Assembly (NCBI RefSeq): GCF_008727925.1
Contig: NZ_VTWT01000007.1
Span: forward strand, 1 to 64,000
Reading direction: 5' to 3'
From: Adhaeribacter soli
GTDB taxonomy: Bacteria; Bacteroidota; Bacteroidia; Cytophagales; Hymenobacteraceae
DNA: 64,000 bases
A model generated the notes under the pieces. It had not been told where the DNA came from. It worked only from the letters and a program-made list of their open reading frames with translations, and searched no databases. Of this stretch, positions 3,465 to 39,846 are shown one piece after another; positions within the stretch are counted from its first letter, which is position 1, and every line of letters starts with the position of its first letter. The translations under genes were made by a program, and so were the position numbers.

Positions 3465-3712
3465 CTATTTAAAGCTTGCCTTGATATAGCTCCAGCCTTT
3501 GCAGCCGGATAATGTGGGCCAACCCAGAAGGGATCACGTTGGCAAAGGGCAACAGCGAGGCCGCGTAATTTTTTTCCTGCAGTGTATTCCGGCAGACCAG
3601 GAAAATTACTACCTGCTGCTATAGCCTTTCCAGGTTATGCTTAACGGTGCTGCTTTGTTGCAGGAAAGTTACGCCGGAGCTGTGCGTTGCCACTTCAATG
3701 GGCGGAGAAGGT
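3465..3712 (-). pseudogene. decayed DsrE-family gene (5'-truncated, stop codon and frameshift)
   Basis: Translating the minus strand gives fragments that read like the C-terminal two thirds of a DsrE-type protein: PPIEVATHSSGVTFLQQ, then an in-frame TAG, then VVIFLVCRNTLQEKNY, LLPFANVIPSGLAHIIRLQ and, after a one-base shift, GWSYIKASFK and a stop at 3465-3467. In intact relatives the matching segments are a VVAHG-like strand, a C-NT-motif, LLPFV..VPSG and a GWSYIK tail. The N-terminal part is missing where the methyltransferase gene begins. No open frame covers it, so it is a remnant. The family call is from memory of the fold's motifs and not from a search. Confidence 0.68.
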
Positions 3713-4522
3713 TTAAAAGGTTTTCTTTACCGCCGTAAGCGCATACACCAGCGGAATTTTATTTTCCAGGTGCGCTACCCTGAATTTGTTTGGAGCAATT
3801 TCCACAGAATTCCGGAAAATATTATAAGGCGAATAATCGAATTCTTCGAAGCTTATAAGCTCCAACCCGTTTTGCAGCAAACTGCTTAGAACTTCGCCCA
3901 AGCCATGATTCCACCAGACAAACTCCTGCTTCAGGTCGGCATGGCGATCGGCGTAGCTGCCGCTTTCGGTTTCTATAATGGGCCCTGCATTGAAATAACT
4001 ATAAGCCACTTTTTCCAGGTCGTCATCGAACATCCAGAGTACCGGGTGAAACTCTGCAAAAATGAAGCGTCCGCCTGGTTTCAGAAAGTGCGCTACAACC
4101 TTTGCCCATTTATCCAGGTCCGGCAACCAGCCAATGGTACCGTAGCTTGTAAAAACCAAGTCGAATTTTTTATGTAAATGCTCGGGCAGCTCGTACAGGT
4201 CGGAGCAGATAAATTCAGCGTTCGTTTCGGTTTGCCGGTCAAGCTCCCGGGCTTTTTCGATGGCTTTATCCGAAAGGTCTACGCCAGTAACGATTGCACC
4301 AAGGCGGGCCAAGGAAATAGAATCCTGCCCGAAGTGGCATTGCAGGTGCAGCACGCTTTTTCCTTGTAGGTCGCCAAGCAGGTTCAGTTCTATATCGTTA
4401 AGCGAAGATCTTCCTCTCAGGAAATTTTCCAGATCATAAAAATTCGATTGCACGTGTACTTCCGTGCGGGCATTCCAGAGTTGGCGGTTCTTTTCCAGGT
4501 AATCGATAGCAGACTTTTCCAT
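3713..4522 (-). CDS. class I SAM-dependent methyltransferase
   Basis: A 269-residue cytoplasmic methyltransferase. Motif I is VLHLQCHFGQDSISLARLGA (about 57-76), followed by VTGVDLSDKAIEKARE with the acidic residue that binds the SAM ribose. FDLVFTSYGTIGWLPD and LKPGGRFIFAEFHPV are the later Rossmann strands of Methyltransf_11/25 proteins. Substrate unknown; proteins of this type act on small molecules. The gene is read leftwards and ends where the DsrE remnant begins. A HEAT-repeat gene lies 38 bp upstream on the same strand, so the two may be co-transcribed. Confidence 0.85.
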   Translation of the reverse strand: MEKSAIDYLEKNRQLWNARTEVHVQSNFYDLENFLRGRSSLNDIELNLLGDLQGKSVLHLQCHFGQDSISLARLGAIVTGVDLSDKAIEKARELDRQTETNAEFICSDLYELPEHLHKKFDLVFTSYGTIGWLPDLDKWAKVVAHFLKPGGRFIFAEFHPVLWMFDDDLEKVAYSYFNAGPIIETESGSYADRHADLKQEFVWWNHGLGEVLSSLLQNGLELISFEEFDYSPYNIFRNSVEIAPNKFRVAHLENKIPLVYALTAVKKTF

Positions 4523-4560
4523 GTACTTACGGTTTTGTTACGGTTTTTAGAAGGTAATTA

Positions 4561-5079
4561 TTACCGTTTTACTTTCTTGATAGCGGCCTGGTAAATTTTC
4601 TTAATGCTGTTCTTTTCTTCTCTTTCGGCAATAGCTTCTAACGTTGGCAGTAATTCAGTGTGTTCTTTTAAATTCAGTTTCAGAATTTCACCTAGTGCAT
4701 AAGCAGCGCTCCAGCGCACCACCGTACCGCTATGTTCGGTATTGGCGAGTAAATTACCAATTGCCTTGTCCAGCTTTTCCGGGAACAGGTGCGCAATATT
4801 GCCGATAACCTTAGCCGACTCCCATTTTATGCGCGGCGCTTTTTCCTGCAGCGTTTCTGCAACAAAGTTCAGGCTGTTGAGGGTTGCTATTCCCGGGCGA
4901 GATTTGGTGGCATATTCGAGGGCTTCTATGCAGGTAACTTTAACCGGATCTTTGGCTTTCGTGGCGAAAAGCACCAGTTCATCTGTGCCCAGCAGGTTTT
5001 CCAGCAGCAGGTTGCTTAGGGTTTCTGTCTTTTCTTTGGGCTTCGTCTGTTTATCGTTCAGAATAAATTTAAGCTCCAT
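4561..5079 (-). CDS. HEAT-repeat protein
   Basis: A 172-residue, all-helical cytoplasmic protein. Helix pairs with HEAT-like spacing are visible: DPVKVTCIEALEYATKSRPG, RIKWESAKVIGNIAHLFPEK and VVRWSAAYALGEILKLN, each with the (W/K)xSAxxxxG pattern. Such solenoids are protein-binding scaffolds; no enzymatic motif is present. It lies 38 bp upstream of the methyltransferase on the same strand. Similar stand-alone HEAT proteins are common in Bacteroidota and mostly uncharacterised. Confidence 0.75.
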   Translation of the reverse strand: MELKFILNDKQTKPKEKTETLSNLLLENLLGTDELVLFATKAKDPVKVTCIEALEYATKSRPGIATLNSLNFVAETLQEKAPRIKWESAKVIGNIAHLFPEKLDKAIGNLLANTEHSGTVVRWSAAYALGEILKLNLKEHTELLPTLEAIAEREEKNSIKKIYQAAIKKVKR

Positions 5080-6609: not shown

Positions 6610-6669
6610 ACCGGTGCCCGGTTTGGGGAGAACTACCTATGCAGGAATAAAATACGGCAGGTAAGGTAA

Positions 6670-6733
6670 GCAACATACATACAACAAAAACGGCCTGCTG
6701 AAAAGCAGGCCGTTTTTGTTGTATGTATGTTGC
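6670..6733. terminator. very long perfect hairpin, probable bidirectional terminator
   Basis: Arms of 30 bp (6670-6699 and 6704-6733) pair without a mismatch around a GAAA tetraloop. The core AACGGCCTGCT/AGCAGGCCGTT is flanked by A5 and T5 runs, so both strands can end in a U-tract. It lies between two converging genes, the + kinase and the - membrane protein at 6789. Confidence 0.85.
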
Positions 6734-6788
6734 TGTACTTTTTCCTTCAGAAATGCTATCGTTTCTAAACGGAAAAGTGGCGGGCAGC

Positions 6789-16618: not shown

Positions 16619-17506
16619 ATGAAAACGATAAGCTTCTTAATAAAAAAACTATACTTCGTATTGCTTTGGCTGCTGCTCGGTTTGGGCTTGTTCAGTTGCG
16701 AACCCGACCCGATCGAAATTGACCTGCCGGCGCATCAGCCCAAACTGGTAATTGCCACCCAGGTTGCTCCGGAAAAATACATGCTCGTACAAGTTTCCAA
16801 AAGCTTCAGTTCCCTGGCCAGCAATTCCGACAGCCTTGCTACCGATACTACTTTTATGAAAAGCCTGGTAGTGGAACATGCGCTGGTGCAGGTAACCTTT
16901 AACGGCCGCACCGAAACCCTGCAGCATTTACGCAACGGTCTTTACATGGGCGCCAACATCGTTCAGTATTACGGGCTAACCTACACCTTATTTGTGCGCG
17001 ATTCGGTTTCGGAGCTTGAATGCACGGCCGTTACCGAGATGCAGGCGCCGACAACGTTCGAAAAGCTGGAGCCGGAAGTAATCCGAACCGCGAAGGACAC
17101 TACCGTAAACCTGCATTTTACCATTGCCGACCAAAGGCCGGAAAAGAACTTTTACCTGATCAGCCTGACCGGCGCGAGCCGCAAAAATGTAATTCCCTGG
17201 AAAGGCACCAGATCGGTGAAAAGCATTCAGGAGCAGATCATTCTGGTAAACGACGACGCGATGCAACAGGGCCGGTATTCGGCGAAAGAAAAGCTCACGC
17301 TGGGCACTTCCGATAGTTTGGTCGTGACACTTACCAACATCAGCGAACCGTATTACCGCTACCTGGAGCTTTACCGGAAATCGGGCAATTTAATGAACCA
17401 GCTTACCGGCGAACCCATAAACCTGCCCACCAATATTCAGAACGGCTACGGCTACTTTTCGGCGCACAACCCTACCGGAGAGGTTTTCAACCTGAGAGAA
17501 TGGTAG
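16619..17506 (+). CDS. DUF4249 family lipoprotein
   Basis: A 295-residue outer-membrane lipoprotein, signal LLWLLLGLGLFSC with the lipid cysteine at 27, followed by EPDPIEIDLPAHQPKLVIAT, the usual DUF4249 opening. The family consists of two Ig-like beta-domains (here HALVQVTFNGRTETL and a second half ending NPTGEVFNLREW). DUF4249 genes nearly always follow a TonB-dependent receptor in Bacteroidota, and this one follows the 13994-16288 receptor on the same strand, so it probably acts as the receptor's surface partner. Its ligand is unknown. Confidence 0.85.
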   Translation: MKTISFLIKKLYFVLLWLLLGLGLFSCEPDPIEIDLPAHQPKLVIATQVAPEKYMLVQVSKSFSSLASNSDSLATDTTFMKSLVVEHALVQVTFNGRTETLQHLRNGLYMGANIVQYYGLTYTLFVRDSVSELECTAVTEMQAPTTFEKLEPEVIRTAKDTTVNLHFTIADQRPEKNFYLISLTGASRKNVIPWKGTRSVKSIQEQIILVNDDAMQQGRYSAKEKLTLGTSDSLVVTLTNISEPYYRYLELYRKSGNLMNQLTGEPINLPTNIQNGYGYFSAHNPTGEVFNLREW

Positions 17507-17588
17507 GCAAAACCCGGAAAAACTAATGCTCGACCAAACTAATTATTAGCATTTGCTTGATTTATAGAATTTGCTTGACGGGATTTGT

Positions 17589-17815
17589 AATCACTACTGT
17601 ACGAAAAGCTATCAAATATACTGATAATCAATATGTTGCGATTAATAATTTAAATCGTTGAATGTTGATTTAGAGTCTCTTAGGGCAGTTTTTAGTAATA
17701 GCATACAACTTTTTTATGTTCATAAAGGGATAATAATAAGTAATATATAATTTTTCAATATAAATTAACTTGTTGATAATCAGTTAGATTGGTACCTTTT
17801 CGTACAGTAGTGATT
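17589..17815. mobile_element. AT-rich MITE with 20-bp terminal inverted repeats
   Basis: The ends aatcactactgtacgaaaag (17589-17608) and the exact reverse complement (17796-17815) enclose about 187 bp of very AT-rich DNA with no gene. TGT is duplicated on both sides (17586-17588, 17816-17818). Removing the element and one TGT rebuilds a palindrome with arms GACGGGATT and AATCCCGTC around TGT; a close uninterrupted relative sits at 17839-17857. The boundary is ambiguous: a 16-bp repeat with an 11-bp duplication (gatttgtaatc) fits the same bases. No transposase here, so it must be moved in trans. Confidence 0.8.
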
Positions 17816-17838
17816 TGTAATCCCGTCTTAACCGAGCC

Positions 17839-17857
17839 GTGGGATTTGTAATCCCAC
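17839..17857. repeat. short palindrome, intact relative of the MITE target
   Basis: Arms GTGGGATT (17839-17846) and AATCCCAC (17850-17857) around TGT. It shares the GGGATT-TGT-AATCCC core with the palindrome that the MITE split 20 bp to the left, so two copies of this small repeat stood in tandem in the convergent gap. Confidence 0.75.
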
Positions 17858-17883
17858 TTACTGAAAATTAACTTGATCATGCT

Positions 17884-18789
17884 CTACCTGAGCGGCAGCG
17901 TAACTTTATAAGACCGGTAGGCTGCAAAGATGCCAAGGCCGCCTTCTACGTTGCTGTAAATTTTTACCGGGTCCAGAAAATTATCGGTAGTATGGAAACG
18001 CTTAAGGGAAGTGTGGTATTCGTAATAGGCGCGGTCGGTAGTGAACAGATAACCGTTTAAAGCCTTTAACCGGCCTTCCTGCTGATCCTGCTGATAATTA
18101 AAAATGGTGCCGCTTACGGTTTCCCAGTTTCGCCCATCGGCCTGGTAATCCCGCACGTAGGGCGCTTCGTACATATCGAGGGGCTGTTCGAAGGGGAAGC
18201 CCGGGAAATCCGGTTCTTCCAGTACCAAGCCGCCGTCGGCCTTGTAAAAGTCGCCTTCGCCCGGCAGGTCTTCCCAGCTGAATTGAGCGGAGTATAGCCT
18301 TTCGGAAGCAGAACCGGTGCCGGAAGAATCGATGCGGACGGTAAGCGACTGGTTGAGCTTTGTGGGCACGGTACAGAAAGCCCGCGCCGCAAAGCCCCCG
18401 GGAGCCGTTACCCGCAAGGTGTATTTCTTGCCGGGCAATATAGCCAGATCGGTAGTAACGTAAACCCCGTTGGGATCAAATACTAGTTGCACCGAATCTG
18501 CTCCGTCTGATAGCCACACAGTAGCGTCGGGAACCGGGGTATAGTTAGAGTAGCTGCCGGCCGTAAGCAAAGGAATTGTTTTACTCACCGAAACCAGTAC
18601 GCCTTCGGCTTCCGGCGAAATAAACGACGAAATTACCAGCTTGGGCGGCACGTCCGGCAAGGGAATCTCTACGTCCGTAAAGCAGCCCTGCAGGGCAAAA
18701 AAGCTAAACCCAATCAGACCAAACCGTAGGATTTTCGCCTGAAAACCGGCCTTCATTGCTTTAAATTTTTTCCGGAATTTCTTTACCAT
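17884..18789 (-). CDS. DUF4249 family lipoprotein
   Basis: A 301-residue outer-membrane lipoprotein with lipobox ALQGC (cysteine 36 from the ATG at 18789; a later ATG at 18756 gives a more usual signal length). The family opening FTDVEIPLPDVPPKLVISSF is clear, and the domain order matches the 16619-17506 paralogue. It starts 3 bp after the stop of the upstream TonB-dependent receptor, so the two are one operon, controlled by the sigma/FecR pair further upstream. It is the last gene of that operon. Probable surface partner of the receptor. Confidence 0.85.
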   Translation of the reverse strand: MVKKFRKKFKAMKAGFQAKILRFGLIGFSFFALQGCFTDVEIPLPDVPPKLVISSFISPEAEGVLVSVSKTIPLLTAGSYSNYTPVPDATVWLSDGADSVQLVFDPNGVYVTTDLAILPGKKYTLRVTAPGGFAARAFCTVPTKLNQSLTVRIDSSGTGSASERLYSAQFSWEDLPGEGDFYKADGGLVLEEPDFPGFPFEQPLDMYEAPYVRDYQADGRNWETVSGTIFNYQQDQQEGRLKALNGYLFTTDRAYYEYHTSLKRFHTTDNFLDPVKIYSNVEGGLGIFAAYRSYKVTLPLR

Positions 18790-33894: not shown

Positions 33895-33939
33895 TTTTGG
33901 TATTAATTTCTTCCCGGCTGAATTCTTTATTTGAATTTT

Positions 33940-34067
33940 CATTGCCGTCTGCTTTAGCTGACGGATGCAGGCTGCCAAAATTCAGCATTATCTCTTCCTG
34001 TTATGTCGTTTTGGCTAAAGCCGAAATTGAAAATCTTTTAAACCGTCAGCTAAAGCAGACGGCAATG
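33940..34067. repeat. palindromic element B, copy 1
   Basis: Perfect 25-bp ends (33940-33964 and 34043-34067), core GCCGTCTGCTTTAGCTGACG, around a 78-bp interior that itself holds a weaker dyad. A second copy lies at 53751-53892 and a half copy at 50448-50472. Together with the 194-bp element it accounts for most of the 656-bp gap between panC and the flippase gene. Confidence 0.8.
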
Positions 34068-34308
34068 AAGCCGGCAAATGGAGTGATAAACCTGATTGGT
34101 TTGAAATAAGGATAACGATTAGGCTTGTGCTGGGCTTGGTCAGATCGGGTGATAAGGCATTGAAAGCCAGTGTGTATTTTCGTTTGCAGGATCAGGGAGT
34201 AAACTGTTCCGGGGAAAATGTTTACTTTTGTAAGTTCAGGACTGAAACGGTGGCACATAGCCGGCTTTTTTGCCTGAAAAGATACCGTTTTCATTTTCTT
34301 TTGCCTTC

Positions 34309-39714: not shown

Positions 39715-39846
39715 GTAGGGACATTTCGCGACCCAATGCCGTCAACTTAAGCATTTTTATTAACTGGTATCGCTGTTTCGGACATAGATGTCTGAAAGAG
39801 CAATAATTCCTTAAGTTGACGGCATTGGGTCGCGAAATGTCCCTAC
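39715..39846. mobile_element. 132-bp element with perfect 37-bp terminal inverted repeats
   Basis: Ends 39715-39751 and 39810-39846 are exact reverse complements over 37 bp, opening GTAGGGACATTTCGCGACCC. The 58-bp centre holds a small dyad (TTCGGACAT..ATGTCTGAA). No coding capacity. The right end overlaps the TAG stop codon of the pcrB gene. No target duplication was recognised. It is too long and too exact for an ordinary terminator; I class it as a MITE/REP-like element. Confidence 0.68.

Follow-up and report, generated by a model that had tools for sequence, protein, structure and literature searches.

A probable IS4-type MITE at the centre of a REP-type hairpin in Adhaeribacter soli

The locus and its AT-rich insert

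The window (the whole stretch of DNA analysed, 64,000 nucleotides of the forward strand of contig NZ_VTWT01000007.1) belongs to an Adhaeribacter soli genome of 4.97 Mb in 16 contigs. Between two convergent DUF4249 genes, each of which adjoins a TonB-dependent-receptor-type gene, positions 17577-17827 read in order GACGGG, ATTTGTAAT, 221 bp of insert, ATTTGTAAT again and CCCGTC, followed by 11 bases and then by the hairpin GTGGGATTTGTAATCCCAC (Table 1). The insert has 17-bp perfect terminal inverted repeats and, as a sequence-only reading of this locus had stated, lacks coding capacity, no ORF of at least 60 aa in the ORF list of the window overlapping it. Its AT-richness relative to the surroundings, part of the same reading, is borne out by a G+C content of 25.6% in the 227-bp span then delimited against 47.8% in the whole window, and only 0.07% of all 227-bp windows reach a value as low. 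The region 17577-17827 folds better than shuffled sequence (z -8.2; 0/200 shuffles equally good), and an Rfam search of 17400-18000 gave no match.

That reading rested on perfect inverted repeats of 20 bp (17589-17608 and 17796-17815), which are present, as are TGT on both sides and the palindrome arms GACGGGATT and AATCCCGTC; such repeats, perfect over 20 bp and no more than 400 bp apart, occur at three further places in the window. As a definition of the element ends, however, they are three bases too long, the outermost AAT/ATT being target sequence, so that the element proper occupies 17592-17812 and its perfect ends measure 17 bp. The second copy of the palindrome claimed at 17839-17857 is an intact hairpin with a common 15-bp core, but with GTG/CAC arms, and both hairpins of the window are parts of one dispersed repeat that, including the insert, covers 17523-17887.

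Table 1. Coordinates of the element, its copies, its host repeat and REP-associated-type genes (window positions unless a contig is given)
Feature	Position	Strand	Remarks
MITE proper (copy 1)	17592..17812	.	221 bp, about 26% G+C, no ORF of at least 60 aa
Left terminal inverted repeat CACTACTGTACGAAAAG	17592..17608	+	pairing extends, imperfectly, to about 50 bp
Right terminal inverted repeat	17796..17812	-	
Left copy of 9-bp target duplication ATTTGTAAT	17583..17591	+	boundary from related Pontibacter IS
Right copy of 9-bp target duplication ATTTGTAAT	17813..17821	+	
Left stem GACGGG of interrupted hairpin	17577..17582	+	
Right stem CCCGTC of interrupted hairpin	17822..17827	+	
Second, intact hairpin GTGGGATTTGTAATCCCAC of same host repeat	17839..17857	+	
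Host repeat, interrupted by the MITE	17523..17887	+	consensus 117 bp, CTAG ends, two hairpins; left arm about 18 bases longer
Copy 2	C8:376994-377244		221 bp, 85% identical to window copy; opposite orientation relative to host repeat
Copy 3	C3:23509-23659		121 bp; ends CATTACTGTTCGAAA, 2/15 bases unlike the window's
Copy 4	C8:139021-139817		767 bp
Copy 5	C11:122531-123339		779 bp
Five REP-associated-type tyrosine transposase genes	C2:40346, C12:56474, C12:58371, C2:52804, C5:92437		open frames of 182-191 aa

Copies of the element and the dispersed host repeat

The genome was searched with the element as query (40 of 52 candidates scored) and with a pattern of its ends, a search that copies with two badly decayed ends would escape. 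The sequence-only reading had named a lack of other copies, or relatives in which the AT-rich sequence is ancestral and no intact palindrome exists, as what would speak against an insertion; five copies with such ends were found (two of 221 bp and one each of 121, 767 and 779 bp), 5/5 in a hairpin loop, and intact palindromes abound. The exact end pattern occurs eight times genome-wide, always within these five copies, and the six one-mismatch matches are at chance level (a reversed control allowing up to one mismatch gave 10, as 5+5). All five insertions sit at the identical point of the hairpin and duplicate nine bases with a 9/9 match, the duplicated sequence being ATTTGTAAT except at C3, where it is ATTACAAAT. 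The interior of the 221-bp element has little sequence in common with the copies of about 770 bp, and no sharing was detected between it and the 121-bp copy. The opposite orientations of the two 221-bp copies, together with inserts of 221, 121 and 767-779 bp at the site, indicate separate insertions. A length of 221 bp free of ORFs of at least 60 aa, 17-bp perfect repeats, a 9/9 duplication and a second full copy 85% identical are the features of a MITE, and candidates for the parental IS with common ends exist in the decayed 767- and 779-bp copies, whose left 15 bases are those of the MITE except for the first, and in a 1.2-kb Pontibacter IS, with one difference in the first 15 end bases.

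The loop that received all five found insertions is that of GACGGG-N9-CCCGTC, a REP-type hairpin. Uninterrupted GGGATTTGTAATCCC has 71 exact copies in the genome and none in the reversed control, as expected of a REP, a short palindrome in many dispersed copies; when all 71 were located, 29 had GAC/GTC arms, 40 GTG/CAC and 2 other arms. Most of these hairpins belong to the dispersed repeat with CTAG ends and two hairpins, whose 117-bp consensus derives from 27 aligned copies, chosen for a length of 110-122 bp from 41 end pairs that include some spurious long ones, and whose end pattern has 77 genome matches against 2 in the reversed control. Five copies that share one hairpin loop and an identical duplication of 9 bp, next to 71 hairpins free of inserts, thus uphold the claim that a MITE was inserted into the loop of such a palindrome. 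The two-hairpin repeat is recognisable around four of the five inserts, the C8:139021 copy lying in a single-hairpin or truncated repeat. The inserts occupy the GAC hairpin in 5/5 cases, which is only suggestive of a preference over the GTG hairpin ((34/76)^5 = 0.018).

Among 204 genomes of the family, the palindrome was present in 21 including this one (reversed control: one match) and absent from the sister genome G001. By eye, exact or imperfect GGATT-N3-AATCC-like hairpins lie near 11 loci from relatives. A partial parallel to the Bacteroidota systems of REPs and REP-associated tyrosine transposases (subclass 2.6, PMC6006769) is that one such gene of this genome, L116, is bordered by the 13-bp core GGATTTGTAATCC of the hairpin, present there as CGGATTTGTAATCCG. 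All three REP-associated tyrosine transposase genes tested score above the NCBIfam REP_Tyr_transpos cut-off, and distinct hairpin types lie near L116, L117 and L118. L116 and L118 carry NHLH and YIHQNP, both tabulated for subclass 2.6 in PMC6006769, and L115 differs (SHVH, YTHQNP). Exact GACGGG/GTGGG hairpins were seen flanking none of the seven above-cut-off loci. The host hairpin is REP-type, and its cognate gene was not found in this genome.

Its CTAG ends and its long closing stem set the host repeat apart from the Bacteroidota systems of REPs and REP-associated transposases. The predicted fold of the repeat (for example C1:127666-127782 of this genome) consists of this closing stem and two hairpins. 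Ten of 21 copies have A-T and nine have G-C at position pair 6-112, which is paired in 20/21 and equalled by 0/500 shuffles, so that the ends of the repeat co-vary there; covariation at most other pairs is not above shuffles. When matches to the ends were inspected by eye for a parent IS, no pair spaced to enclose a transposase gene was seen beyond the inserted elements, and the repeat is possibly a REPIN-like mobile repeat for which no parent was found. The window holds further inverted repeats: a 132-bp element at 39715-39846 whose perfect inverted ends of 37 bp enclose TTTCGGACATAGATGTCTGAAA, a sequence similar to hairpins found beside REP-associated transposase genes of this genome; another 132-bp element at 33938-34069 with 27-bp perfect inverted ends, containing CCGTCTGCTTTAGCTGACGG; and, at 6669-6734, a hairpin whose perfect arms of 31 bp enclose a loop of 4 bases.

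Transposase relatives and the length of the duplication

In the 767- and 779-bp copies a transposase frame persists in decayed, internally deleted form; it keeps the first and second catalytic D and has lost the E/YREK region. The remnant shows 31-35% identity to the open homologues aligned, and had no match in Pfam or NCBIfam, nor among plasmid records at E 1e-3; a search for a solved structure matching the transposase found none at E up to 10. A search through 98 genomes pointed to G045; its copies correspond to those of Pontibacter sp. HSC-14F20 (identical flanks, by eye). The Pontibacter IS is 1233 bp long with ends CACTACTGTTCGAAACC and a 382-aa open transposase gene, the product of which matches the profiles DDE_Tnp_1 and NF033592 (IS4 family; 154 bits, cut-off 115). 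IS4-family membership was judged by a DDE triad spaced D(60-110)D(100-150)E with the signature Y(2)R(3)E(6)K, and the Pontibacter homologue L076 has D-73-D-105-E and YREK (YQERWQIEVLIKFLK). A duplication of about one helix turn also agrees with this family, nine bases being repeated 9/9 in 16 of 25 two-ended loci. The sequence-only reading had pointed to a transposase gene with the same ends as a check: an open IS4-family gene lies within such ends in the Pontibacter IS, but only decayed remnants were found in this genome. The element family is of IS4 type, since the open frame of IS with ends of this kind codes for an IS4-family transposase; because the MITE encodes no protein, its own link to IS4 rests on ends, target and remnants.

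Within the family, the IS4Sa subgroup is defined by ends CA------T, a length of 1150-1750 bp and a duplication of 8-10 bp (PMC2266710 Table 1). The relatives have ends CACTACTGT, lengths of 1233-1236 bp in seven G045 copies and 1211 bp in one G496 copy, and a 9-bp duplication, which fit this subgroup and suggest an IS4Sa-like element. Relatives at E 1e-30 or better occur in 5 of 390 genomes of the order, and neither that search nor the one of 98 genomes found an intact transposase gene of this type in the present genome. As two copies of about 770 bp carry a decayed one, the element family is probably immobile here.

The end pattern occurs in 14 of 204 family genomes, and single hits are at chance level, as the reversed control gave 21 matches in 18 genomes. 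Six single-hit genomes (G408, G424, G429, G452, G506, G507) were therefore set aside; a search for a partner end in their loci paired none. Beyond this genome and G045, paired ends led to the acceptance of G496, G509, G514 and G485, while G489 and G498, for which no convincing partner end was found, were accepted more weakly and only because the end match continues as CGAAACCTG. Accepted genomes with the genus label of G045 are termed Pontibacter-type. G045 has 28 end matches, of which 19 were listed and 15 loci were examined, and G509, G514 and G485 contain MITEs of 247-282 bp. Five Pontibacter sites (G045 C11:186098-186826 and similar) hold IS derivatives of 729-744 bp; the one compared lacks an internal part of the 1233-bp IS, which parallels the copies of about 770 bp here. 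More distant IS4 relatives do not conform to loop targeting: the four copies of G154 show duplications of about 6-10 bp and, by eye, no hairpin, and L099 has inverted flanks with no direct duplication. A further distant IS4-type element, in an uncultured Microscilla record (L098, about 3578-4866) and with ends TAGGAGTGTACGAAG, also duplicates ATTTGTAAT, possibly by coincidence, as a single copy in a GTAATTCGTAATTTGTAATT context.

The sequence-only reading had left the duplication at 3 or 11 bp; the relatives make 9 bp, ATTTGTAAT, the most likely length. ISPsy8 and IS1397 are REP-targeting IS of the IS3 family. A 3-bp TGT duplication around 20-bp ends (AATCACTACTG), in the manner of these two, would account for the TGT at both ends and the perfect 20-bp repeat, and ISPsy8 is described as duplicating three bases at the REP symmetry axis (PMC1525189). 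It is nevertheless highly unlikely and was rejected, because the Pontibacter IS ends carry no AAT/ATT, which once assigned to the element must hence be target bases; the associated transposase, moreover, is IS4-type. Distinguishing 9 from 11 bp is harder: most copies agree with either length, since G and C border the site and the terminal bases of the element are C...G. Counting the terminal C/G as target makes both flanks read GATTTGTAATC, and among the 20 sites with at least seven matching bases the nine are preceded by G in 20/20 and followed by C in 19/20. Against an 11-bp duplication by the same IS4-type element, which we consider unlikely, L034 and L037, two different sites, have T at the first position of the element with a matching A at the other end only in L034, as for an element-borne base; L153 has T, not C, after the nine bases; and IS4Sa ends start with CA and go with duplications of 8-10 bp (PMC2266710 Table 1).

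Insertion into a symmetric site or into a hairpin

Segment 17592-17812 is very probably a non-autonomous MITE of an IS4-family, IS4Sa-like IS that was inserted into the centre of a REP-type hairpin with a 9-bp duplication. An IS4-type DDE transposase would have recognised its ends and moved it in trans, presumably by 9-bp staggered cuts at the hairpin centre GGG-ATTTGTAAT-CCC that duplicated ATTTGTAAT. The preferred site of this enzyme seems to have an approximate two-fold symmetry, GG(G)-N9-CC(C), and the dispersed GACGGGATTTGTAATCCCGTC hairpin, the site of all five found insertions, would thereby keep the elements in intergenic repeats.

The wider target frame was derived from 29 loci, 25 two-ended and 4 with one end only. 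Of the two-ended loci, 16 repeat the nine bases with a 9/9 match and 4 with 7-8/9, and the remaining 5 reach no more than 4/9. Recombination between copies, which has been proposed for the imperfect repeats of ISRm22 (PMC1525189), may account for loci whose nine bases do not match, one of which, L140, probably has a false partner end. At the 20 sites with at least 7/9 matches, the nine bases are preceded by GG in 19/20 and followed by CC in 18/20 (both in 17/20). In Pontibacter-type genomes the duplicated sequence is usually GGTAGGGGC, although many of these sites are not independent, being copies of a single repeat. A fixed position within REPs, as known from ISRm22, was seen in 5/5 copies here; Pontibacter-type sites are mostly fixed in sequence and partly hairpin.

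That five copies have an insert at exactly one place could also mean that the dispersed repeat originally contained the AT-rich segment and that most copies lost it. This is barely credible, as the inserts differ in length and interior, the 221-bp pair is oppositely oriented and each insert has a 9-bp duplication; with 71 intact hairpins, precise losses leaving one nine-base copy would have to be repeated dozens of times. More serious is the possibility that hairpin structure (a cruciform or single-stranded loop), and not the symmetric GGG-N9-CCC sequence, guides insertion. All five insertions here are in a hairpin loop despite 524 occurrences of GGG-N9-CCC in this genome; five of five in hairpins would arise by chance with a probability of about (76/529)^5 = 6e-5 (71 intact plus 5 occupied hairpins), a figure that overstates the preference because it takes the insertions as independent and ignores selection against gene insertions. 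Loss of gene-hitting insertions would exaggerate an apparent preference of these five for intergenic hairpins. In a fold test of the 20 loci with at least seven matching bases, 5/5 reconstructed sites of this genome fold with the target in the loop, but 5 of the 15 reconstructed Pontibacter-type sites reach z values of -2.9 to -10, the other 10 having -1.6 to +0.5, and the usual Pontibacter-type target GGTAGGGGC is not self-complementary. Guidance by structure is rather unlikely. Loop insertion was likewise rejected as a rule of the wider IS group, since only 5/15 related sites fold clearly better than shuffles: it is perfect here but not general, which makes the symmetric frame the better common denominator.

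Insertion of IS into REPs, including by the IS4-family ISRm22, is already established (PMC1525189). ISRm22 of Sinorhizobium meliloti, with 9/9 copies inside REP elements (PMC1525189) and placed in the IS4Sa subgroup (PMC2266710), is the closest precedent: it too is an IS4-family element at the axis of a REP palindrome with conserved target arms. However, it is a complete IS of a proteobacterium with a reported 6-bp direct repeat (perfect in 6/9 copies; PMC1525189), whereas the elements described here are non-autonomous, belong to Bacteroidota, have a 9-bp duplication and use another target sequence. ISPpu9, ISPpu10 and ISPa11 are related to IS110 and have direct repeats of 2 bp or none, and ISPsy8 has 3 bp (PMC1525189). 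These elements, like IS1397/ISKpn1 and IS621, share with those here a fixed point in dispersed extragenic palindromes but are not MITEs. In the literature available to a full-text search, no description of MITEs in REPs, or of such elements in Hymenobacteraceae, was found.

IS231A is an IS4-family element with a symmetric GGG-N5-CCC target in the ends of Tn4430. Its target and the one here are both of the form GGG...CCC, although the spacing is 5 in IS231A and 9 here, and the site is a transposon end there and a REP-type hairpin here. The insertion described here can be read against 71 uninterrupted hairpins of the same genome. With it, IS4-type elements that target REPs are extended to Bacteroidota and to MITEs, and a simple target frame is suggested, GG(G)-N9-CC(C) with nine bases duplicated, common to hosts with differing target sequences. 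This makes it directly testable whether such transposases read symmetry, sequence or hairpin structure. More tentatively, a Hymenobacteraceae IS4-type lineage may use dispersed palindromic repeats as a landing ground, its transposase reading GGG-N9-CCC with the help of hairpin extrusion and its host repeats (GGGATTTGTAATCCC here, GGGGGTAGGGGCCC in Pontibacter-type genomes) being colonised by IS, deleted IS and MITEs; although possible, this falls well short of even odds. If true, mobile DNA would here be nested, in two layers, within REP-type mobile DNA and restricted to intergenic space. In this genome the frame GGGNNNNNNNNNCCC is found less often than in its reversed control (524 versus 839); the window contains it 5 times, against 18.8 expected from shuffles.
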